Assembly: GCF_963675165.1 (NCBI RefSeq)
Contig: NC_087385.1
Location: 1,798,501 to 1,862,500, forward strand
Source of the DNA: Halichondria panicea
Taxonomy: Eukaryota; Porifera; Demospongiae; Suberitida; Halichondriidae
Length of the DNA: 64,000 bases
Direction: 5' to 3'
Below the pieces are notes generated by a model. It was not told where the DNA came from. It saw only the letters and a list, made by a program, of their open reading frames with translations, and ran no database searches. The stretch's first letter is position 1; each line of letters begins with the position of its first letter. Below, one piece after another: positions 22,126 to 60,030 of this stretch. The position numbers and the translations under genes are program-made.

Positions 22126-22187
22126 GAGCAACACTGAACTCATACTTTGATCAATAATTTATCTCAAACTCAATTCACAGCAGTGTT

Positions 22188-25100
22188 ATGGCTGACTTAG
22201 CGACTCTCAAGAGACGAAGAGGTACTATAAAGGCTAGCCTTGCTAGGCTCACCACGAAACTAGCTGAACTGGAAGACTCGGATCGGGACGCATCCTTCTC
22301 AACCCATGCCCAACAGTACGTTAAGAAGCTTGAAACACTTGATGCTAGCTTCAAAACTCATCACCTCGCTATTATGGACATTGAAAAGGAAGAGCAACTT
22401 GGCGCAGAGCAAGAAGCTCTTGATCAACACGACGAAGATATCAAGACCCTATCTGTGAGATTGCAAGTGTTATTGTCCTCTACTGCTACTTTGACTGTGA
22501 CACCTCCTGAGACTCGCTACCTCCCAGACCGTGCCGTTCTTGAGCGTCGCTCAGCACAACCGCAAGAAAGGCTCCTAGCCATCAGTGAAGACGTCTCTAG
22601 ACTCTCGGGTGATCCCAGCGAACTCCATCTAGTTTTTCTTCATCAAGAACAACTATCAGACCTCAAGAAGGAACTGTCAGACCTCAGAAACGAAGTACTG
22701 GTAATCACCACAGACACCTCAGATGTACTCTGGGTGGATACACAACGACAAGACAGAAGTATATTTGATGCATCTGTGAAAGTTAAGAAGCTGCTACACA
22801 GCCCACCCTCTGATCCAACTGAAACTCTCACACCAGAACCTCATGGTGTCAAGCTACCTAAGATCGATGTACCCACATTCGACGGCGATATGTTACACTG
22901 GAAAACATTTTGGGAACAATTTGACATAGCGATCGACGGCCGTTCAGACATTTCCAACACGGAAAAACTGGTGTACTTACGTCACTCCCTCAAAGATTGT
23001 ACAGCTAAATCTGTAATAGAAGGATTGTCTCACACTGGTGATCAGTATGCTGAAGCTATTGCCTCCCTGAAGTCTCGCTATGACCGTCCTCGCATCATCC
23101 ACCAAGCCCATGTCAGAAAAATCTATGAAGTGGCTAATCTGAAGGAAGGCTCAGGAGAGGAACTAAGACAGCTGCATGACACTGTACAGCAGCACTTACG
23201 AGCTTTGAAAGCGATGGGTCATGAACCCTCTGGCCCCTTTATCACCTCACTACTTGAGCTGAAGCTGGACAAAGAGACCATGTTCGAATGGCAAAGGGCC
23301 AGTCAAGATTCCTCTGACATACCCCACTACAGCAAGATCCTCAATTTCCTCGACCTGCGTGCTCAAGCCTCAGAAACATGCTCAACTGATGCCAAAAAAC
23401 ATCCTCGTTTTGACCAGAAGAAGTTCAACACAAGGACAGTAACCTCCCATACCTCGAGTGCTACAGACGCAACTCCGAAATGTCCCCACTGCAAAACCCA
23501 AAGGCATCCTGTATATGTCTGTCCTCAATTCAAGTCGCTTCCTCACGACAAGATGCTGGCTGTGGTCCACACAAACAGTCTGTGTCTCAACTGTCTTCGA
23601 CCAGGTCACATTGTAAGAAATTGTGTCAGCAACAACCGTTGTAGAAAGTGCCAGAAATCTCACCACACTCTACTTCACAATGAAGCGAAGACTCCACCTG
23701 ATGAGGAAACTTCTGCATTCGCCGTAGCTCCTATGGTTTCAAGCAATGCCCAGCCTGGCTCCTCAGGGAAAGCCCTTCTGATGACTTGCCAAGTACTACT
23801 TCACTCCCCCGATGGCTCGCAAGTCCATGCCCGTGGTCTTATTGACTCTGGCTCCTCAACTTCATTTATCTCTGAGCGCTTGGCACAATCTCTCTGTCTC
23901 CCTCGATCGACTCAGAATATCAGAATCTCAGGGATCGCTGGCATATCCCATGGCTCTCCTTTACACTCAATCGCAAGTTTCAAAATCTCTCCTGTCCTCT
24001 CACCCAAAGAGCAGCTACAAGTCTCAGCAATCGTTGTGCCACGTGTAACTTGCGATTTACCTATTCAACCTATCCATTTCGACTCAAAATGGAAGCACCT
24101 CTCTAACCTCCAACTCGCAGATCCTGACTTTGGACAACCCAACAAGATCGATATACTTTTGGGAGTAGATGTCTACGCCGATGTAGTACTGCAAGGCCGG
24201 CGGAGTGGACCTGTTGGGACTCCTGTGGCATTCGAGACAAAGTTTGGGTGGGTTCTCGCTGGAAGAGTAAACAAGCTCACGATCCCATCTGAAGTTACAT
24301 CTCATCATGTGACAGCTATTTCAGGAGATGATATCCTACGCAAATTCTGGGAATTAGAAGAAGGTCCTAGGGATTGCTCCAACTTCTCTCCAGAAGAACG
24401 TTTTGTCATTCAGCACTATGCGAACACTCACACCAAAACAAACACTGGTCGGTTTGTAGTTCCCTTGCCAAAGAATCCTCAAGCGAAGCCACTTGGCGAG
24501 TCCAGGTCTTCAGCCATCCGTAGATTTCTCTCATTGGAGCGTTCACTGCACGCAAGAAATCAGTTTCAAGAGTTTGCCTCAGTAATGCAGGAATATGTGG
24601 ATATGAACCATGCTGAGCTGGTCCCAGAAACAAACTTGAAGAAACCTAGTGAGAAGGTATTTTACTTGCCCATGCATGCCGTTCGCAAGGAAGACAGTAC
24701 TACTACCAAGCTCCGAGTTGTATTTGATGCTTCTGCGAAGTCAAGCACTGGCGTCTCACTCAACGACACTCTACTAGTTGGACCGACCGTCCATCCTCCT
24801 CTCATTGATGTGCTACTCCGTTTCCGGACTCACCGTGTTGCCTTGACCACGGATGTTAGTAAAATGTATCGGGCCATTGATCTAACCATGGATGACAGAG
24901 ATATGCACAGATTTGTATGGAGAAACGATCCAAACGACCCCCTTTGTGACTACAGGATGACTCGAGTCACATTTGGTGTTTCAGCCTCCTTTTTTGCAGC
25001 CAACATGTCGGTAAAACAAAATGCCATTGACCACGCGACAAACTACCCACTGGCCGCAAATGCTGTAAACTACTCATTCTACGTCGACGATGGGTTGACT

Positions 25101-27665
25101 GGAGCAGACTCCGTCTCTGAAGCTATAGAGTTACAGCGGCAACTTCAAGACCTTTTTTCCCTGGGAGGGTTCCTCCTTCGGAAGTGGACGTCCAGTGAAC
25201 CATGTGTCATCGAAGACTTGCCCGCTGAATTGAAAGATTCCAAATCTACACAGACTATACCTTCATCTGAAGAATATACCAAAACTCTTGGAATCCAGTG
25301 GAACGCCCACAAAGATCACTTCAAGTTGGCTATTGCTAGTCCACCCCCACTCGAAAGCATAACCAAACGTGGGCTACTCTCTGACGTCGCTAAGACATTT
25401 GATGTCCTAGGATGGTTCTCACCGTCGACTATCAAAGTCAAAATCCTAATGCAACTACTATGGGAGTGTAAGATTGACTGGGATGATCCTGTCCCTTCTG
25501 ACATCCAAGATGCGTGGATCCAATGGAGAAAAGAATTACCACTCCTGTCTCAAAAACACATCCCTCGTTGCTACTTTGACAAGAAATCTCAACCTCACTG
25601 TCTACAGCTACACGGTTTCTCAGATGCTTCGGAAGTCGCATATGCAGCGGTTGTATACCTACGCATTACGGACAAGTCTGAGAATGCTCAAATCTCTTTG
25701 GTAATGTCGAAGACAAAGGTTGCTCCAATCAAGCGGTTGACAATCCCTCGTCTGGAACTATGCGGAGCACAGTTGCTCGCCCAGCTGATACACCACGTCA
25801 GACAAGTGCTCGAAATTCCCCTTTCTCATGTTTTTGCTTGGACAGACAGCACTATTGTCCTCAACTGGCTAGATGGATCCCCCAAAAGATTCAAGACCTA
25901 TGTAGGCAACCGTGTCTCGACCATAGTTGATCTCATTCCACCTGACAAGTGGAGACACGTAGCTGGAACAGAGAACCCTGCTGATTGCGCTTCAAGAGGT
26001 CTCTACCCCTCTGAGCTTCTGAATCACTCTTTATGGTGGGACGGTCCGATCTGGCTCAAGGAATCTTCTAGCAGTTGGCCTGAGAAGTTCCCTCTACCTT
26101 CAAACAAGAAAGAAATTGAAGAAAGTGAAGTGTCGCTATCTGCACTCACCCTAACTCCTACCCCAATCATACCCGTTGACAGATTCTCTGGATATAGCCA
26201 CTTGAAACGCATTACTGCATGGATGATTCGTTTTGTAACAAATTTTCAAACAAAAAATCATGCTGAACGAAGCAAGGGAAATCTCTCAATTAGTGAACTG
26301 CAAGCAGCTGAGAATTACTGGGTTAAGCTCATTCAGACTACTCACTTTGGATCTGATATTGTATCTCTTCAAAGAAAACATGCTCTCTCTGCCTCCAGTC
26401 CACTCTTGCCTCTACAACCATTCATTGATTCTTCAAACCTCCTTCGCGTTGGCGGTAGGAGGCAGCTCTCACAGACGTCCTACCAGTCTCAGCACCAAAC
26501 CATACTGCATGGGAAGCATCTCCTTACTCATATGATTATACGCGATGAGCATCTACGCCTGTTACATGCTGGTCCAACACTTCTCGGAGCTTCTCTATCC
26601 CGGCGCTACCATATAGTTGGTGGACGAAAGTTGATTCGATCCATTGCTCGAAAATGTTTCACCTGCCGTAGATATACAGCAAGACCCAAGCCACAAATGC
26701 TTGGACAACTCCCTGTTGAGAGAATTACACCAGGTTTAGTGTTCGACAACGTTGGTGTGGACTATGCTGGTCCAGTCTTAATCAAGTACGGCTACGTACG
26801 CAAACCAAAGTTGGTGAAGGCTTACATATGCGTGTTTGTCTCCCTCTCAGTGAAAGCAGTCCACCTGGAGTTGGTGACTGACCTAACATCTGAGGCATTC
26901 ATTGCTTGTTTCAAACGCTTCATTGCTCGACATGGCCTCCCCTCACTTGTATGGAGCGACAATGGCACAAACTTTACCGGAGCTGCCAGAGAGATCAAGG
27001 AACTCTACCAATTCCTCCAGACCCAATCCACTCAAGACGAAGTCAACCGCTACCTTTCTGACAAAGGAGTGACATGGAAATTCATCCCTCAGCGCGCACC
27101 TCACTTCGGTGGAATCTGGGAAGCCGCCGTCAAATCAACAAAGACCCACTTAAGACGAGTTTTGGGTGAAGTGAAACTAACTTATGAAGAGCTGTCTACT
27201 CTGTTAGCCCAGATTGAGTCCTGTCTCAAAAGCTGACCTCTTGCTTCCCTCGTGAATGACGATGATGGTATAGAAGCACTCACTCCTGGTCACTTTATTA
27301 TCGGCAAACCTCTCACTGCTCTGCCAGAAACGACCCCCTCAAGCCGATCAATTTCTCTCCTAAAGCGTTGGCAACTTTGCAAATCATTGTTACGGCATTT
27401 TTGGAACCGATGGTCCTCAGAGTATGTTACTCAAATTGGACGATTTACGAAATGGCGTCACCCCACCAGAAACATAGAAACTGGCGATTTGGTTCTCATC
27501 CATGAGAATTCACCCATACCCACTAAATGGCCACTAGCCAGAGTCGTCAAAGTACACCCTGGAAAAGATAATTTGGTACGCGTAGCCACTGTTAGAACTG
27601 CTACCGGAACATATACTCGCCCTGTGACGAAGCTAGCATTGCTTCTACCGAACGATGAACAATGA
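22188..27665 (+). CDS. BEL/Pao gag-pol polyprotein, one in-frame stop
   Basis: One frame runs 22188-27236 (1682 codons) and, after a TGA at 27234-27236, continues in the same frame to 27665. Domains by residue: coiled N-terminus (1-200), DUF1759-type gag core near 225-370 (VPTFDGDMLHWKTFWEQF), CCHC knuckle CLNCLRPGHIVRNC near 465, aspartic protease LIDSGSS near 550, RT with YVDDGL near 964, RNase H with FSDASEVAYAA near 1145, HHCC zinc region near 1453-1495 (CFTCRRY), integrase with VDYAGP near 1523, WSDNGTNF near 1588 and GGIWEA near 1641. The part after the stop (ALTPGHFIIGKPL) is the conserved integrase C-terminus. The stop sits where relatives usually have arginine, consistent with a CGA to TGA change. 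Otherwise the frame is open, so the copy is recently disabled or read through. Confidence 0.92.
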
Positions 27666-40600: not shown

Positions 40601-43600
40601 ATGTGGTGCAGTGTATCAGGGGGAAATTCTGAGCCATTGTTCTTCCGAATCTGAAAAATGAAGCATTTCAGATTCGTTCCTCGGATTTCAGGTCACTCAT
40701 AGTAGAATAACATCCCCATGGCACTTTAATCGGTACTCACACCAGTCATTCCATAGCTTGAAGCAGCTAGTACTTTGTATCTGAAGTTGTGCTATTAGGA
40801 ATAGCATTCTTCTTCAATTTTTCCATCTCATTTTTTGTTAACTGAGGTGCAAATGCACGCACTTGCTTGGAGGTAGAGGCACTGCTTGAAGAAAGCTTCA
40901 TTCGCTTTGAGTTAGGTAGAGAAGATTGTGCAGGTTCTGTTGGCTAGTCCAGCTCCTCCTCCTTTCTTTGTTTTGTAGAAAGAGTAGCCAGCTCCGCCTC
41001 CACATTTATGTCGTAGAGGGCGGGGTCTATGGGCTCGGTCATTATTATGCCGAGTACTTCTTCAGAAAAGAGCTTGTCTAGGCCTAGGTCCAGTGTGGAT
41101 TATAAAAAATCTGACAGGAACTGACTTATGTCAGACCATAACCAAAATGCTCTGTCATTGTAGTTTCTTGTTCTGCCATGACTGTCTCAAGGCCCGACTA
41201 ATGAGGAAAGTCTAGGGCCTGATGCCCTGAGACATGGATCTACCATGCATTATTATTTATAGCTCATTGACGTTCATTCTGATAAAATATGATATAAATA
41301 ATTATGACAGTCTAATTATTAATATGCACAAGTGAACATTTAGAGTAAACCACTGAAGATCAGCCACCATGATAAATCGGCCGCTCGTACGCCAACACAG
41401 CACTTGCAAATTGATTTATTTTTGCTACTATATAGAGCTCTTGATGTGATGTTCCTATGAGCCAAACGAGACTTGCAACCAACGTTGTGTTCCGGAGTTA
41501 GAGTTAACTTTCCAGCGCTGCCGAAAGTACATATATTCAGCCAATTGCATGTATTTCCGGCACAACGATCTTCTCTAGAGTATGGAGGCACGATCCAGCT
41601 AAGATTAACTTCTAGTAGTAGCTAACTATGTCTACTAGCTGCATGCAAAATATGAAACTCTGTGGTGCAGCTGTTCCGCTACTAGCAACGCTTTTTTCTC
41701 ACAAATCTACTGATTGAAATTCGGCCACGCCCCATTGCAGGTTATAACATCATTAGCCTCGACTCCAACCGCCCCAACTATTATAAACAGCAATCCTCAA
41801 AGATTATATGGTAACACAGACAAAATAGACAAAATAGACTACAAAAAGAACATAAAAACAATAAACAATATTATTATTACTACTGGCTACACGACATACA
41901 AAACCATGTTTTTTGAGTATCATTAAAAACAGCGTTTGGAATGTTTTCGCAATCCTGGTGGTACCATTTACTGCAACTGTCACATGACGCCATATCCCCA
42001 AACCTCGATGTGACTTCCACATCAGAATATCGGCACCTACAGTATACAGGAACCTGCGTTTTTGCGACTATTGTCTTGGGGCAATCCCTTTTTTTTGCAG
42101 CTCGTGGGAAGCGTGACAGTTCACGATTGTTGAAGCAACGCTCCAGATGAACTCTCATCATCGATTCATCGTAGCTGATTTTCAAAGGGTTTCGACCAGA
42201 ACATAAATCATAAGCCATAGCGATGGCAAACAAACCACAAGAATCACCAGTATACTGAAGTTGAACATTCACAACTTGGATTGTGAAACGATCTTTCATA
42301 CAATGGAGAATCGTGCAAGACTGTTCAATAATGGTAGGGCCAGGTTCTATGTGAAGACTGTCATACAGCTGTATTTCACTTGCATCAGATGATAATTTAT
42401 TTGATAAGCACGCCCAATGAAATCCTCCAACATGAATTATTTGCACAAATTCATGAGCTGACGATCTCCACTGGAGATTTTCGAGCAAGTACATAGTATC
42501 TTGAAGTCCGTTTTGATGAGGGAATTCTCTTCTGAGCAGCATATTTGCAGCAGAAATATGATTTGCTGACAGCCAAGCATTACGTTGAAGGGCTTGTTTC
42601 TCATAAAGAGAGAGACCAAGATCACTAACCCAATCTTTTAAGCACAGATTTGTTTCTGAGTCATCAAGCAATGATTCATTGGATACTTGAAAGTGTACCT
42701 ACAGATACAATGACATACGTAACAAGATGCTCATAGAGCATCATAACAAATATCTTACCCCACGAAAATTACCCGCTGTATGATATACAACTCTATGATA
42801 TTATCCTATGGAGTGTAACTGCACAAGTAATACATTATTTACCTTGTATGCCTTCGAGTCACCAGCACGTGTACTAAAGGGCGTAGATTTGACATTCCTT
42901 GCAGCACTTTCCCCGCTGCTTTTCACTGGGCTCTCAGGATCAATGACAACAACAGGAGCTTGGTCGTCTGGAGCTGCATTTTACCATGAATATACAGTCA
43001 GTACAATACATGCATGTACACAAATACAAACCTGTCTCGGTCTTTCTCCCAGTCTGAACACTCACTCCTATAAATGCACACCAGAATCACGTGGTAACAA
43101 AACAATGAGACCCACACATATACAAGTACATGTACATGTACATGCACATTACTTACCAGCGCGTGTCCTAGATCGCGTAGATTTGACATTCCTTGTACAT
43201 GTAGCACTTTCCCCGCTGCTTTTCACTGGGCTCTTAGGGTCAACGACAACGACAGGAGCTTGGTCGTCTGGAGCTGCATTTTACACAGTAAGTACAATAC
43301 ATGCATGTACACAATGCAAACCTGTTTTCTTTCTCCCAGTCTGAACACTCACTCCTATAAATGCACACCAGAATCACGTGGTAACAAAACAATGAGACCC
43401 ACACATATACAAGTACATGCACATGTACATGCACATTACTTACCAGCGCGTGTCCTAAACGGTGTAGATTTGATGGTGGTTGTAGAACTTTTTCCACTGC
43501 TTTTCACTGGGTGAGCTTGGACGTCTGGAGCTAATTAATTGAGAAGGTCAATCCACATGTGTAGATATACATGTATACATTGTGACAACTCACATGTACT

Positions 43601-46600
43601 AAGAGGAGAACTCTCAAAACCACCGCCACTGAATGTATACGTATCACATAGGGTATCTGACCAGTTATCCGGAGGATCTATGTACATGTACACGACTGCA
43701 TGACGTATAAAGGAACACGACAATTTGTATTGTGACAGCAATCATAATTATGTTCACACATAAGCTCACCAGTTACTGTTATTTTTACAGGATTGGTGGC
43801 CTGATCCCTACTGTGATGATTGGGTGGATCTGTATGAGCACAAAACTTATACATAGTTGCTACGGATAAAGGGATAGGAGGAATAACTCCACAAGTAATA
43901 AAGGTGCATTACTTACCAAACAGAGAAAGCTGAAGAGGGCTTACAAGTAAACTGTCCTCATCGCTGTCACACACCTCATCTGTAGTACGATAAACCGAGT
44001 AAGCACAGCACATGTAACAACAGTTAAACAAGCCAAATACCTTTTGTCTCTGTCTTGCTCTTGTCTTGTTTCTCAGTCTTGCGACGGGTTCCTATAGTGT
44101 ATAATATGAATGCATGTATGCAATGTACAAATAATTATGATGGTAATAATTATTATGAAACCTACCTGTTGATTTTGGTTTCGATTCAATAAGTTTTTTT
44201 ATATCATCTGATACAGCTGAACCTAACGATATAAAAGTATACTATAATATATCTATGTGTAATATTCGGACTTACTTTTCTTTAATTCTCTGATGTACTT
44301 ATTTTGCTCTTTTCGGAATTTCTCTTGTGCTTTATCCACTTCCTTTAATTCCATTTTTTGCCTTTCTTCTGAAGATGTTGCCACTCTAGATGTCTTTCTC
44401 GGCTTGATTGTTGGAAGCTTATGGATTGGCTCAGGGTAAGTTAAAATTTCTTTAAGGGGTCTTCCAGCAGTTGGATATGTGTAGTTTCTGGAAGCATCAG
44501 TTTCTTTTCGGGAGTACGACTTTCGTGACGGAGTCAACAATGGCAGAAATGGCAACCCATTCACATCTTCTTCCAAAACGCTTTCCTCCAGATACTCAGG
44601 TGGCATGATTTTACTCCTGTCAAGTGGATACACTCCTGTTGTTTCAAATCCGGACTGAACATTTACCATCGTTAGTGCCTGAACCCATGCCTTCTTAAAC
44701 AGACTGCTAAACGAGAATCTGCTGAGCACCTTTCCTGGATTTTGGGCCAAATATTCATGGCAGAATTGACTATAGCGAATTTTAAGGGGACCGAAAATCC
44801 CCTTATCAAGTGGCTGCGACAGGTGCGTAGTATTAGGGGGGAGAATAAAGAGAATAACTTTTTGCTTTGCTGCAAGACGGATGGTTTCAGGTGAATAGTG
44901 TGTGCTGTGTCCATCCATCAATAGCAATAATGGGCGAACAGCAGGGGCATAACGTAGAAATAAGTTATTAAACCAGACGTCGAAAAGCTCAGTGTCAATC
45001 CACCCATTATCAGAGAAAGCATGCAACGTCCCATGAACTTCACCAGCTGCCATGTCAGGGTGCATGGACTTCCCATTCCAGATAACCATCGGGGGAATAC
45101 AGTAACCAGCAGCACTGACACATGCAACTACAGTTATTTGGGTCTTTTTTCCACTCGTGATACATGAAGGATTTTTCATTCCTTTTTTGCAAACAACTTT
45201 TGGAGGATGGTGGTCCAGAGGCATGCCTGTCTCGTCAACATTAAAAATATGTGCTGGTGTGTCTAGAAGGTCATACTCTACTAGAACCTTCTCCAACATG
45301 TCAAAGTAACTCGAAATAACTTCTGGATCTGTGGCTTTTGCTCTTGCTACAGACAATTTAGGAATTCGCAAAACTAGTTCCGAGTGTCGCTTTGTGAAGC
45401 TTTCATACCAACCATGAGTGACTGTGACCTTGACTCCTTTACGGTCGCACACTCTTTGCACAATTGCAATTACATTACTTCTGGTTTTAGGAAAGCCAAC
45501 AGAGGCACATCTAATCAAGAACCTGGTCAGTTCTGCTTCTTCTGCATCAGAGAGATACTTGTTTGGGCCACTTTTGGCACCAGGAAGAGTGCTTCCTCGA
45601 TAGTAATCGCCCAGTGTGGACCTAGGAATACCATATTCTTCAGCAGCACGTCGTTGACTCAACGTACCATTTCTAATAGCTGAACAAGCAGTGCTTACGG
45701 TTTTCAAATCCCAATGCTTGTATGAGGGTGGGCGATTTTTTGAGTTAACTTCACATACAGTCGCAGCTTTCTTAGTACGGCTATAAAATATTCTTTCTTT
45801 TAGCGGTACCTCAGCCATATGTAACCTACAGAATAAGCAAAGACAAAAATAAATGTTCAGCACCATAATTGTGGGGTTCTAAGTTTGTCTCAAAGTGAAG
45901 TGAAGCTGTTGTTATTACAACACTATACAAGCACACTGTAAACCATTGCCAAAACATAGATACAAATTATGGCCATGAAGCTAGCTAGCTCATTAATTAC
46001 CTAGAAGCGAGCCTAGAAGCACCTAGTACCTGGAAACACGTCTCACACAGTAGCACTTTCGATTTATCCACGTGGCAAGATAGTTTTGAAAGCAATGGGC
46101 GTGGCTGAATTTCAATCAGTAGATTTGTGAGAAAAAAGCGTTGCTAGTAGCGGAACAGCTGCACCACAGAGTTTCATATTTTGCATGCAGCTAGTAGACA
46201 TAGTTAGCTACTACTAGAAGTTAATCTTAGCTGGATCGTGCCTCCATACTCTAGAGAAGATCGTTGTGCCGGAAATACATGCAATTGGCTGAATATATGT
46301 ACTTTCGGCAGCGCTGGAAAGTTAACTCTAACTCCGGAACACAACGTTGGTTGCAAGTCTCGTTTGGCTCATAGGAACATCACATCAAGAGCTCTATATA
46401 GTAGCAAAAATAAATCAATTTGCAAGTGCTGTGTTGGCGTACGAGCGGCCGATTTATCATGGTGGCTGATCTTCAGTGGTTTACTCTAGTCATTGAACCA
46501 TCCTATAAGTATTCAGCCAGTGAAATGGTTGACTCATCTTCATCAGGACTGGTTGTAGAGCTAGATGTGCTTGTTTTGCTCAGATTCACAACACAGTCAT

Positions 46601-49600
46601 GGTATAGTGTTTAGTGATCTTTCTCCAGTTCAATGGACTTGCCTCTTCCTACATAAACTTGTCTCTCAGGCTGTTTGACAGCTAAATGCTGAGAAGAGTG
46701 ACGGTTAGAGGGCATAGCTAGCCTGTAGGTACGTAGCTACTTTACAATCTATTCTTAATTTCGCACGTGGCTATTTAGCTTGCTGAATCAGCATCCAATA
46801 GCAACTAATTAGCTTGCTGAATCAGCATGCATATAGAGCGCATGCGCAACTAGATCTCGAGTACTGGCAGGTCATTGTGGCAACCCAGAGCTAAACTGAC
46901 CGGTTATTCAGGTTCTTGGGTCGGTAAATAGCCGAATGCCGACCGTTATAATCCACACTGCAGGTCTTCGTCCGCGTCCATTCTTTCGGTTAGTTTTTGA
47001 AATGAACCTAGCAACTAACTCGTTAGATACTGTTTAGTCGGTATCTATATGGGAATTATAAGCCCGTAGACACTCGTAGTACCCTCGCTTTGCTTGGGAT
47101 AGTACAGCAGGCCTTTGGGCTTATAATTCCCATAGATACCTCCTAAACAGTATCTAACTATTATTTATTGTGGTAATGAATTTGCTACAAATCTGCCAAA
47201 ATTAGTACCCTAAAAACGGAGAAAAATATGAAAACGCTAAAATTACTACCCGTCTATAATAGTAACATTAAGGTAGGCATGATTGTGTCAATATCAGCTA
47301 TATATATATATAGGCAGAGGAGGTTGGACATGCATCATAACTTGTCAGCTGATATTCTTCTTCTGGACACTCATGCATGCATAGCTCACAACCTCCTACC
47401 ACATGTGCCTATATCTATGGAACGCCACCTGGGTCAAAAATAGAGTATCAGCATCAAGGACCAGACTGTCAGCAATCAGTGATTCCAGGAAATCAATGTA
47501 CTAGCAATCAGTGATTCTAGGAAATCATGTACCGTATATCTTCTAATTTATCGGACAGCAAAAAATAATTATTTTGGAAATTGTCCGGGTATAATTGGAA
47601 CAGATTTTTATAGAGCATGCAAAGTGTCCGTAGAACAAGCAAGCAGCTGCATGCGAGCTAGCTAAGTTTAATAGAACAGTGTGCGACTGAATAGTTGCAC
47701 TAGCTATCTAAAACTAGCTCTCAAAGCTATCTAACTGCAGCACTCTAAGTCTTACTTGCCGTCTATGACAACTTTTCAAGGGTATTGTCCGGATATTTAG
47801 AACAAATGTAATATTAAAGCACTGGAGTGTCCGTTGTATTAGAACAAAGAAAATTGCCCAAAAGAGTGTCCGGGGTAATTAGAAGTGTCCGATAAATTAG
47901 AAGATATACGGTACTACCAATCAGTGATTCCAGGAAATCGATCCAGCAATCAGTGATTCTAGGAAATGGATGGGCCTGCAATTGATTACCAGTACAGTAC
48001 TGTGATCCTGTACTGGCAGTGGCTAGTGATGTCGCAATGCTTGCAGCTTTGCAGTCACGTGACCTATTGCAAGGTCAGATGTTGACAGGATACTACTTAA
48101 CACAGAAATTCCTTCCTGCAGCTTTTTTGCTTGGTCTTCTGTGAAGGACATTATTGTTGTAGGGTAGAACCGAGCAACTGCCACGTGGCCGTGGCTTGTC
48201 TTGCAATAACTTTGTCATGTGACTAGACTAATCTGCCATGAGGCCCATGACTGGAGGAGCACCGATTACCTGAAATCACTGGTTTGCTGGGTGCATGCAT
48301 CAGTTACCTGGAATCAGTTGCTGGCGCATCGATTCACTAGGTCTAGATATTGCAGGCCCCACCCATTTCCTAGCATCACTGATTGCTAGTACATCGATTT
48401 CCTGGAATCACTGATTGCTAGTACATCGATTTCCTGGAATCACTGATTGCTGACAGTCTGGTCCTTGATGCTGATACTCTATTTTTGACCCAGGTGGCGT
48501 TCCATATATATCATCCATGCATGCCTGTATAGTAGTCAAAAAACAGTCTAGAGTTGTAATTCGCTACAGTTTACTAAGAGCACTGAATATGCCCGCACGC
48601 ATGCAGATATATATACTGTACCCTCGCCGCAATAATATGTGTGTAGTGTCATTAGCCTATAGCTGAATAACATATATAGCTAAACTGACAGGGGTTTAGT
48701 AAGCAATAAAATCATGGCGGTAATACTGAACATAACATACAGCTAGTGCACTGACTGAAATACACACAACAGGACTAACTAGGAGAACAGGAAACCATAT
48801 AAGTACTCTTTTGCTACGAACATCTTTCACGAAGGTATCTTGACTCAATAATGCGTCCACCCAGAATGAAGAATTTGAGCATGCAAAGTAGCTAAAATGA
48901 CATATTAGTGAGTATAGTTCGCTGGTACTAAGATATGGCATATATAAGTTTCACTGTGTGGTTATCTTTGCCCAGATGTGTATGCAGAGAGCAACTATAT
49001 AGTCCAACTAGTTCGAGCACTGAAGTACTAACCCTCGGCTGTTGACATGAATCGTATAGGTGCAAACTGTCCGGAATTGGCCGGGACTGTCCCAGACTTA
49101 GCACCCCTGTCCCTTGTCCCGAAATGAAACTGCTATTATTAGTCAGAGCCTCTCTGTACTATATACTCGCTACTATGGGACGAGCCTCATGGCTCGCCCT
49201 AAAACCCATGGCCGCCCGCACGCCTCGAGTATAATAATGAATGTCGATCATCTAATTTTATATAGGCTACTCTACTTTACCTTGGGTTGCTGTTCCTTTC
49301 GTTTTGTGGAAAAACATGCATGCAGAATGTATACTTAATGCAACAAATGACACACAACGTCTTCAGGTTGTGTCGAGATTACAGTAAACTGTTGTGTTGA
49401 TCATTCTGTACTGATATGCAGGCAATGAACCGGCTATACGAAATCAGAAGGTCAATAAGGGCTTTGGGCTGATGGAAAAATTCACGGAACACATGTTTAG
49501 TGAGGAAAAAAGGCCAGTGCTTGTATCAAATGATCCAGCCGTGTTCACTATGGTGATGTCCACCCTCACAAACTATGAGAAATGGGTGAGGATGGTTTCA

Positions 49601-56599: not shown

Positions 56600-58800
56600 A
56601 ATTATGTCACTACTGTAACAACTGTAACGCCATAGTCACCACTGTGTAACAACTGCAACACACGTCACAACTGCATGTAACAACTGTAACACATGTCACC
56701 ACTGTAACAACTGTAACACCAGTCACCACTGTAACAACTGTAACACCAGTCACCACTGTAACAACTGTAACAACTGTAACACCAGTCACCACTGTAACAC
56801 CAGTCACAACTGTAACAACTGTAACATATGTCACCACTGTAACAAGTCTGTCAGCACTGGAACAATTGTAACAACTGTAACAACTGTAACACCAGTCACC
56901 ACTGTAACAACAAAACTGTAATACATATCACCACTGTAACAACTAGTCACCACTGTAACAACTGTAACAAGTAATACCAGTCACCACTGTAACAACTGTA
57001 ACAACTGTAACACCAGTTACCACTGTAACAACTGTAACACCAGTCACCACTGTAACAACTGTAACACCAGTCACCACTGTAACAGCTGTAACACATGTCA
57101 CCACTGTAACAACTGTAACACCAGTTACCACTGTAACAACTGTAACACCAGTCACCACTGTAACTAGAGCACTAAAGTGCAAACCCTCGGCTGGTGACTG
57201 ATAATTAAGAAACCAGAAGAGTGATAATGCAGTGCATGTAGCATGTATGACTAGCATGCGCTAGCACAGCAACTCAAGAGCAATAAAACTAAACTAACAA
57301 CGTACATGCATGAGACATGCACTATGGACTGGGATCACAGCAAAGAAGTCTTAGACTAAGAGAAGTATGGCTCCTTCCAGGCTGGAGTACGTATAGGATC
57401 CAGAGTCAGTCAACAACCAGTCACAATTCTACTTTCTTGACAATTGTTCCTGGTACGGGATCACTTTAGCTGAAAATACATAATCAAGCCTTGACTACGT
57501 ATTTTCAGCGGAAGTGATCCCGTACCTTGACTCAAGGCCACGTGGCAAGTTTAAGCTTCTTAGCTTTTGCTCGCTTTTACTCGACAAAGAAGCTTTAACA
57601 TCAAAATCTGCCACTATTTAAACCAAGATATTGTTGTGTGAAGACTACCTATGCTGCAAACGCAGTGCTATGGCATCCAGGTGAGTAGATATACTCGTTA
57701 CAAACAAACAAACAAACAGACAAACAGACAGACTACTATAACCCGTGGCCGCCCACGCGCCTCGGGTTAACAACTGTAACACCAGTCACCACTGTAACAG
57801 CTGTAACACCAGTCACCACTGTAACAGCTGTAACACATGTCACCACTGTAACAACTGTAACACATGTCACAACTGTAACAACTGTAACACCAGTCACCAC
57901 TGTAACAACTGTAACACCAGTCACCACTGTAACAACTGTAACACTTGTCACCACTGTAACAACTGTAACACTTGTCACCACTGTAACAACTGTAACAACT
58001 GTAACACTCGTCACCACTGTAACACCAGTCATACAACTGTAACACTTGTCACCACTGTAACACATGTCACCACTGTAACAACTGTAACACCAGTCATCAC
58101 ACTAACAACTGTAACACATGTCACCACTGTAACAACTATAACACCAGTCACCTCTGTAACAACTGTAACACATGTCACCACTGTAACAACTATAACACCA
58201 GTCACCTCTGTAACAACTGTAACACATGTCACCACTGTAACAACTGTAACACTCGTCACAACTGTAACAACTGTAACACATGTAACAACTGTAACACATG
58301 TCACCACTGTAACAACTGTAACAGCTGTAACACTTGTCACCACTGTATCAACTGTAACATCTGTACAACTGTAACACTTGTCACCACTGTAACAACTGTA
58401 ACAACTGTAGCACTTGTCACCACTGTAATGACTGTAACACTTGTCACCACTGAACAACAGTAACAACTGTAACACTTGTCACCACTGTAACAACTGTAAC
58501 ACATGTCACCACTGTAACGCTAGCAATTGTAACGACTGTAACAACTGTAACACTTGTCATACTGTAACGACTGTAACACTTGTCACAACTGCTGTAACAA
58601 CTGTACAACTGTAACAACTGTAACACTTGTCACCACTGTAACAACTGTAACACTAGTCACAACTGTAACGCTAGTCACCACTGTAACAACTGTAACACTT
58701 GTCACCACTGTATCAACTGTAATATCTGTAACGCTAGTCACAACTGTAACACTTGTCACATGCAACCAACAACTGTAACACTAGTCACAACAGTAACACT
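56600..58800. repeat. Minisatellite, left arm (units of 9 bp: GTAACAACT, GTAACACCA, GTCACCACT)
   Basis: The usual higher-order unit is 27 bp, the three 9-mers in order, with frequent loss or gain of one 9-mer and variants such as GTAACACAT and GTAACACTT. The array is interrupted at about 57167-57768 by an insertion. Confidence 0.88.
57167..57768. mobile_element. Insertion inside the minisatellite
   Basis: Non-repeat DNA starting AGAGCACTAAAGTGCAAACC and ending GCCGCCCACGCGCCTCGGGTT. It contains a hairpin (GTACGGGATCACTTTAGCTG against CGGAAGTGATCCCGTAC at 57456-57525). Similar end sequences occur at 49013-49045 and 49200-49232, suggesting another element family. Confidence 0.5.
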
Positions 58801-58849
58801 AGTTCTTATAGAACTTATATAGTCTATAGTGGTGCCAGACTATAGTGTT

Positions 58850-60030
58850 ACAGTTGTGACTAGTGTTACAGTTGTTACAGTGGTGACATGTGTTACAGTT
58901 CTGTTGTTACAGTGGTGACTGGTGTTACAGTTGTTACAATTGTTCCAGTGCTGATAGACTTGTTACAGTGGTGACATATGTTACAGTTGTTACAGTTGTG
59001 ACTGGTGTTATAGTTGTTACAGTGGTGACTGGTGTTACAGTTGTTACAGTGGTGACTGGTGTTACAGTTGTTACAGTTGTTACAGTGGTGACTGGTATTA
59101 CAGTTGTTACAGTTGTTACAGTGGTGACTAGCGTTACAGTCATTACAGTTGTGACTAGTGTTACAGTTGTTACAGTGGTGACATGTGTTACAGTTGTTAC
59201 AGAGGTGACTGGTGTTACAGTTGTTACAGTGGTGACAAGTGTTACAGTTGTTACAGTGGTGACATGTGTTACAGCTGTTACAGTGCATGGTGACTGGTGT
59301 TACAGTTGTTACAGTGGTGACGTGTGTTACGGTGGTGACTGGTGTTACAGTTGTTACAGTTGTTACAATTGTTCCTGTGGTGACAGATGTTACAGTTATT
59401 ACAGTGGTGACATGTGTTACAGTGGTGATATGTGTTACAGTTTTGTTGTTACAGTGGTGACTGGTGTTACAGTTGTTACAGTTGTTACAATTGTTCCAGT
59501 GCTGACAGATGTTACACTTGTTACAGTGGTGACATATGTTACAGTTGTTACTGTTGTGACTGGTGTTACAGTTGTTACAGTGGTGATTGGTGTTACAGTT
59601 GTTACAGTTGTTACAGTGGTGACTGGTATTACAGTTGTTACAGTTGTTACAGTGATGACTAGTGTTACAGTTGTTACAGTAGTGATATGTGTTACAGTTC
59701 TGTTGTTACAGTGGTGACTGGTGTTACAGTTGTTACAGTTGTTACAATTGTTCCAGTGCTGACAGACTTGTTACAGTGGTGACATATGTTACAGTTGTTA
59801 CAGTTGTGACTGGTGTTATAGTTGTTACAGTGGTGACTGGTGTTACAGTTGTTACAGTGGTGACTGGTGTTACAGTTGTTACAGTTGTTACAGTGGTGAC
59901 TGGTATTACAGTTGTTACAGTTGTTACAGTGGTGACATGTGTTACAGTTGTTACAGTTGTGACGTGTGTTGCAGTTGTTACAGTTGTTACAGTGGTGACT
60001 ATAGCGTTACAGTTGTTACAGTAGTGACAT
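58850..60030. repeat. Minisatellite, right arm (inverted units)
   Basis: The same 9-mers in reverse complement (GTTACAGTT, GGTGACTGG and variants). Within it a longer unit of about 240-280 bp containing CAATTGTTCCAGTGCTGACAG recurs near 58935, 59485 and 59745, so there was a second level of duplication. Confidence 0.85.

Follow-up and report, generated by a model that had tools for sequence, protein, structure and literature searches.

A pogo-superfamily transposon of a sponge genome with a transposase predicted to be joined to a Ulp1-type protease and a PHD finger

Does a single mobile element of the sponge Halichondria panicea encode a pogo-type transposase joined to a SUMO protease, and what would such a protein do? 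The question is raised by the element at positions 41343 to 46486 of a 64,000-nucleotide stretch of contig NC_087385.1 (positions 1,798,501 to 1,862,500 of the forward strand; hereafter the window). A first-pass annotation, made from the letters alone, had described a pogo transposon whose transposase is spliced in frame to a Ulp1-like protease and a PHD finger, and had proposed that the element removes SUMO at chromatin. Hosts use SUMO to silence mobile DNA. In yeast as well as in plants and animals, SUMO favors the silent state of chromatin (PMC8131101).

A pogo element with a ten-exon open reading frame

The element is bounded by terminal inverted repeats (TIRs) of 390 bp, identical at every base, and by TA dinucleotides. 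Its gene lies on the minus strand, and some of its exons carry repeats resembling SUMO-interacting motifs (SIMs). The features, in order along the window, are as follows:

41341..41342, no strand: target-site dinucleotide TA at the left end; TA also lies beside the other copies inspected
41343..41732, plus strand: left TIR, 390 bp, on the 3' side of the gene; 100% complementary to 46097-46486
41880..42698, minus strand: exon 10, Ulp1/C48-type protease (H823, D842, Q877, C883) and C-terminal PHD finger; stop codon at 41880-41882
42843..42973, minus strand: exon 9, SIM-like repeat; tandem-duplicated exon
43157..43273, minus strand: exon 8, SIM-like repeat
43444..43530, minus strand: exon 7, a repeat-exon copy that lacks the VVV core
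43600..43677, minus strand: exon 6, linker
43770..43829, minus strand: exon 5, linker
43917..43979, minus strand: exon 4, acidic linker
44041..44091, minus strand: exon 3, basic linker
44166..44222, minus strand: exon 2, linker
44276..45818, minus strand: exon 1, ATG, HTH_psq, and DD35D pogo transposase core (D195, D302, D338)
46097..46486, minus strand: right TIR, 390 bp, on the 5' side of the gene
46487..46488, no strand: TA at the right end

Nine GT-AG introns join the ten exons into 3006 nt, encoding 1001 amino acids (aa) and a stop codon, with no internal stops. The short exons 2 to 9 are all entered in phase 1, and their lengths, apart from that of exon 9, are divisible by three. Exons 7 to 9 are tandem copies of a single exon, and two of the three carry the SIM-like core PVVV(V/I)D. 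The splice sites, phases, and stop-free frame of the first-pass annotation were reproduced, as was its domain order of helix-turn-helix (HTH), DD35D core, linker with SIM-like repeats, Ulp1/C48-type protease with His-Asp-Gln-Cys, and PHD finger; its length of 3012 nt was not. Pfam profiles for HTH_psq (3.3e-10) and DDE_1 (1.7e-20) matched exon 1, and HTH_Tnp_Tc5 had no match in the window protein. The catalytic aspartates are residues 195, 302, and 338, with 35 residues separating the last two (DD35D). A TA target site, TIRs, a DDE_1 core with DDxD spacing, and HTH_psq place TA-41343..46486-TA, by its sequence, as a DNA transposon of the pogo superfamily (IS630-Tc1-mariner group), in agreement with the earlier identification.

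An alternative arrangement is two separate genes in one transposon, with the transposase ending after exon 1 and the protease having its own start. Unspliced exon 1 reaches a stop about 20 nt beyond its donor (open reading frame [ORF] 44253-45878), which would allow production of the transposase alone as well. A free protease, by contrast, is given no start by the exons, because Met is absent between residues 489 and 782 of the fusion, and the codon directly upstream of exon 10 in the same frame is a stop, with no in-frame Met upstream of that exon. Diverged relatives in the same genome, designated by L numbers, point the same way. In L033, a diverged pogo family whose transposase and protease are 48% and 43% identical to those of the window, the two parts are joined in frame by one 182-nt intron in phase 1; in L034, three introns make the in-frame join, also in phase 1, with an exon that reads DEDVVIVE... 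in between. Counted from the stop before exon 1, these joins leave 844 and 893 codons without a stop, respectively. A linker exon and the protease exon of L035, in which the transposase is broken, are both in phase 1, and TIRs enclose both parts in L036 (262 bp, 92%) and L037 (322 bp, 92.5%), both broken copies. The phase-matched joins of L033, L034, and a core-less derivative described below, together with single-ORF fusions in other elements, make separate genes very improbable. The element almost certainly encodes one spliced protein, predicted to consist of the transposase, a SIM-bearing linker, an Ulp1/SENP-type protease, and a PHD finger. The case that the first-pass annotation had named as contrary, transposase and protease genes lying in unrelated elements, was not seen: at the eight further places where this family occurs, the same TIRs surround both parts, whole or in pieces.

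The protease–PHD cassette in other elements

From 86 matches in the genome, 12 diverged loci were fetched and 11 were used; with the window, they represent ten pogo families. The protease is present in six of these, namely, the window; L033 and L038; L034; L035; L036, of which L039 is a protease-deleted copy; and L037. No Ulp1 core was found in the pogo elements L040, L041, L042, and L044, where it was sought. All four nevertheless have a PHD finger (profile E between 5e-7 and 2e-5), which is placed close to the 3' TIR and a long way downstream from the transposase exon. L039 gave no PHD match, and the L038 sequence stops short of its end. In the transposase tree, the four protease-less families lie on one side of a poorly supported branch (42/25), and a single loss of the protease in pogo families is possible. 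The protease tree took in five cassettes from non-pogo elements, chosen out of 142 matches, and placed the seven pogo cassettes in one clade apart from them (99/97; 200/200 bootstrap trees). The pairs L033 with L038 and L034 with L035 occur in both trees; L036 and L037 are placed differently, without strong support. The clade and the recurring pairs fit one acquisition by pogo elements, followed by joint descent.

Transposons capture host exons, and the protease–PHD exons could accordingly be a captured host fragment carried as recent, functionless passengers. The weak constraint among near copies (see below) would suit such passengers. Against them stand the single clade of the seven pogo-borne cassettes, the pairs that recur in the transposase and protease trees, and the catalytic His, Asp, Gln, and Cys, which are invariant and in order in 11/11 cassettes. 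We consider passengers very improbable. In this genome, several families have the protease–PHD part together with the transposase.

Relatives of exon 10 also occur in single ORFs, at the C-terminal end of other transposases, in the same genome:

L045, 398-2668, 757 aa: Ginger-like by a GPY/F-type motif read by eye, with no Pfam integrase; C48 and PHD below Pfam cut-offs
L046, 2-3427, at least 1142 aa: Mutator PF20700, 5e-13; C48 and PHD below Pfam cut-offs
L047, 462-3905, 1148 aa: P-element HTH PF12017, 1.5e-5; C48 above the cut-off, PHD below

Two further Ulp1–PHD cassettes were noted, one at 1560-2834 of L048, after an ORF resembling L046 by eye, and one at 3701-4570 of L049, without an identified transposase partner. 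The C48 profile PF02902 stayed below its cut-off in L049 and did not match L048.

The first-pass annotation had held that Ulp1-like proteases of other transposon types are generally separate genes. Fusion of the cassette to Ginger-like, Mutator, and P-type transposases within this genome contradicts that statement, which is also at odds with published Ginger1 fusions: Ginger1 transposases carry a C-terminal Ulp1 domain, and Ginger1-9_HM carries Ulp1 and PHD (Bao et al., 2010; PMC2836005). The architecture therefore has a precedent in another superfamily, since transposase, C-terminal Ulp1 protease, and PHD finger likewise share one gene in Ginger1-9_HM. The Ginger1 core is a Gypsy-type integrase, whereas the window core is pogo DD35D with HTH_psq and a TA target site; because it is a DDE_1 pogo core and not a Gypsy-type integrase, the window element is not a Ginger1. 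Ulp1 is also found in Mutator-like elements (cited in PMC2836005), and a PHD finger in Rehavkus (PMC6446971); these share with the window element one or both domains in a transposon protein, but their transposase superfamily is unrelated, and no SIM-repeat exons or core-less derivative were seen in the accessible accounts of them in these two papers. C48 peptidases are further known in Cryptons (PMC3212892).

A pogo survey (Gao et al., 2020; PMC7386202) reported elements of 1.2-5.2 kb and proteins of 300-977 aa. The window element shares with the surveyed ones the TA target site, HTH_psq, DDE_1, and DD35D, and its length falls within their range; at 1001 aa, its protein is just over the 977-aa limit. 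The survey gives TIRs of such length (392-856 bp) for certain insect elements alone. Unlike the surveyed elements, the window element has ten exons, a protease, and a PHD finger, and the word PHD is absent from the accessible main text of the survey. As the first-pass annotation had supposed, no fusion of pogo with Ulp1 was found among the matches listed in the literature searched, Repbase and most subscription papers being outside reach; the accessible parts of PMC2836005 and PMC3212892 describe no pogo fusion, and those of PMC10027918 contain no PHD, Ulp1, or C48. As far as these searches go, the pogo host, the PHD tail in all ten sampled pogo families, and the core-less derivative are new. 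A P-type transposase with Ulp1–PHD may itself be undescribed, no literature search having been aimed at that case.

Beyond this genome, a set of 5.8 billion proteins was searched for fused proteins (residues 730-1001 at fusion length), which gave 476 candidates, 0 of them at E<=1e-3; this null is not evidence of absence, because the proteins of the set seem to be unspliced ORFs. Searches of the set with exon 10 and with the transposase gave 232 and 390 relatives, respectively, of which the best 120 were used in each case. Contigs sized 820161 and 1674267 appear in both lists of best 120, which suggests transposase–protease linkage elsewhere; a shared short contig (2564) may reflect chance. The viral contigs searched held no relative.

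Copies of the element and a core-less derivative

Nineteen TIR matches form pairs at nine loci, of which the window is one; in L030, one of the two ends is partial. TA is present at both ends in 6/7 other copies inspected and, in L030, at the single end found. Three copies are long, namely, the window, L025 (transposase frame lost), and L032 (decayed), and the fusion is open only in the window copy. In L025, the repeat-exon acceptor occurs nine times in tandem; eight of these repeats include the VVV core, and each is open in the same phase as far as the donor. This variation in exon number concerns a linker that is possibly SUMO-binding.

The other six, L026-L031, represent an internal-deletion derivative (2.9 kb) in which the catalytic core is gone; the deletion starts near codon 165 of the transposase and extends as far as a repeat-exon donor. 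In L026-L029, the remnant of exon 1 stops in phase 1 at a GATG|GTGAGT donor and can be spliced in frame to a SIM exon and then to exon 10, giving joined HTH-SIM-Ulp1-PHD frames of 481, 481, 481, and 482 aa, respectively. L027 equals L028 over 2942 bp, though at different sites, and L026 and L027 have flanking DNA in common; L026-L029 therefore represent three insertion sites. The derivative has presumably spread by being moved in trans by the transposase. The KP-type repressors of the P element are internal-deletion derivatives that keep the DNA-binding end and spread. The derivative described here is likewise internally deleted and additionally has a complete Ulp1–PHD module.

Predicted activities and proposed function

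The fold of the protease domain matches NEDP1, Ulp1, and SENP1, and in the best 60 rows of a profile search the protease matches were SENP1 and a Ulp1-like SUMO protease. Among the best 120 of 232 database relatives, the active-site residues were retained in 120 (H), 119 (D), 120 (Q), and 119 (C); the aligned rows mainly cover the protease (model 15-195) and are not informative on the PHD finger. The protease is very probably active, and its tag is probably SUMO rather than NEDD8 or ubiquitin. The PHD finger of the window protein was matched by Pfam at E 1.7e-8, and its best profile matches, among the matches listed, were the solved DIDO1 and PHF2 PHDs. With the trimethyl-lysine cage positions taken from ING/DIDO PHDs, the putative cage residues are Y219, M236, and W245, and Y/F, M, and W occur together in 99 of the best 120 of 232 relatives. 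In sequence, the PHD finger looks like a reader of histone H3 trimethylated at lysine 4 (H3K4me3). In 6/9 cassettes, each of two rules places a SIM-like motif among the 60 residues that immediately precede the protease (shuffle mean 1.70, P 0.0023, and shuffle mean 1.30, P 0.0003), compared with 3/19 windows further upstream. The SIM motifs and the PHD cage alone lean towards SUMO at active chromatin.

We propose that the HTH part would take the protein to the element's own ends through TIR binding, the SIMs would hold SUMO or SUMO-coated proteins, and the PHD finger would hold active, H3K4me3-marked chromatin. The protease would there strip SUMO from silencing or repair factors, and the element would stay transcribed, or excision and repair would go through. 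On this view, the derivative would be a deSUMOylase directed to the TIRs and devoid of transposase activity. A pogo fusion with a protease that removes SUMO from silencing or repair factors at active chromatin is the reading that we prefer, with a probability of about 0.55; within it, we slightly favor counter-silencing over a repair role. The first-pass interpretation is thus retained as to pogo identity, in-frame fusion, and domain order, and SUMO removal at chromatin stays an inference. The protease of the fusion might instead serve transposition itself: where the element is excised, it would strip SUMO or a related tag off the transposase or DNA repair factors, and it would have no part in silencing. 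Activation of repair factors has been raised for Ginger1 (Bao et al., 2010; PMC2836005), and the protease is predicted to be attached to the transposase instead of being a free enzyme. Yet the protease persists in the derivative, which has lost the catalytic core and is open at 4/6 loci, and the PHD finger resembles an H3K4me3 reader; both fit chromatin action better, and we regard a role in transposition as the less probable of the two.

Comparison of near copies bears on whether these parts are maintained. With the SIM exon excluded, shortened exon 1 and exon 10 differ between L028 and L029 at 0/1315 sites against 12/1461 noncoding sites (Fisher P 6e-4), and between L026 and L029 at 1/1315 against 10/1461 (P 0.013); the contrast between L026 and L028 is uninformative. 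Exon indels relative to the window are all multiples of three in L026, L028, and L029, which are not independent since the copies have a common history, as against 6/11 non-exon indels of L026 that are not. Frame-breaking exon indels are present in L025, L030, L031, and L032. The ratio of nonsynonymous to synonymous substitution rates (dN/dS) of exon 10 between the window and L026 is 0.19 (P 0.037), and it is 0.26 against L028 and L029 (P 0.106) and 0.64, not significant, against L025; most near-copy comparisons hold too few changes. Purifying selection among the near copies is suggested, and the invariant active site is the deeper evidence.

Several observations weigh against the preferred reading. 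The SIM exon of the derivative differs at 7/131 sites between L028 and L029, and including it erases the coding/noncoding contrast; these differences probably arose by exchange between repeat copies, and the low coding difference could be explained by gene conversion too. Compared with the window copy, exons and the remaining sequence have diverged to similar extents (L026, 1.35% and 1.60%; L029, 1.54% and 1.55%; L025, 1.17% and 0.75%), and exon 10 dN/dS falls below 1 at P<0.05 in 1/10 pairs, with pairs lacking the window showing nothing. Two of the six derivative loci, L030 and L031, are broken. The four pogo families without a protease keep the PHD finger, so the protease is dispensable for some. 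The two SIM rules were taken from ELM or self-made and were fixed after the motifs had been seen; a first count within each linker showed no significant enrichment. PF02902 did not match the window protein at E<=1. In the fold comparison, NEDP1, which acts on NEDD8, is placed as high as Ulp1/SENP; NEDD8 and SUMO protease folds match about equally, so that either could be the target tag. A protease that works on NEDD8 or ubiquitin instead of SUMO nevertheless seems unlikely, with SIM-like motifs preceding the domain and SENP1 and a Ulp1-like SUMO protease as the protease matches in the best 60 profile rows.

More tentatively, SIM-Ulp1-PHD could be a portable counter-silencing module that four or more unrelated superfamilies of transposons have in common within a single animal genome, with the pogo offshoot that lacks transposase activity spreading as a TIR-addressed deSUMOylase that would shield its family in trans from SUMO-dependent silencing. 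Our confidence in this extension is low, and was lowered because the SIM exon weakens the argument from constraint. A transposase linked physically to a protease of the SUMO type, a reader of the H3K4me3 type, and motifs like those that bind SUMO, an arrangement that recurs in several families and is transmitted even by the derivative without the catalytic core, makes counter-silencing by deSUMOylation directly testable, and the natural core-less derivative parts the two functions without engineering.

Other features of the window were also noted. A perfect 15-nt inverted repeat, CAGTGTGGATTATAA, flanks the element (41091-41105 and 46946-46960), which may sit inside another short transposon. 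Two inverted repeats, of 27 and 18 nt, lie one within the other at 47022-47158 and are probably a hairpin or a small foldback element. A 1692-aa open frame on the plus strand at 22158-27236 resembles a gag-pol polyprotein of a BEL/Pao-type long terminal repeat retrotransposon, as judged by eye. The long simple-sequence arrays at 57742-59717, with long open frames on both strands, are probably a minisatellite rather than a gene.

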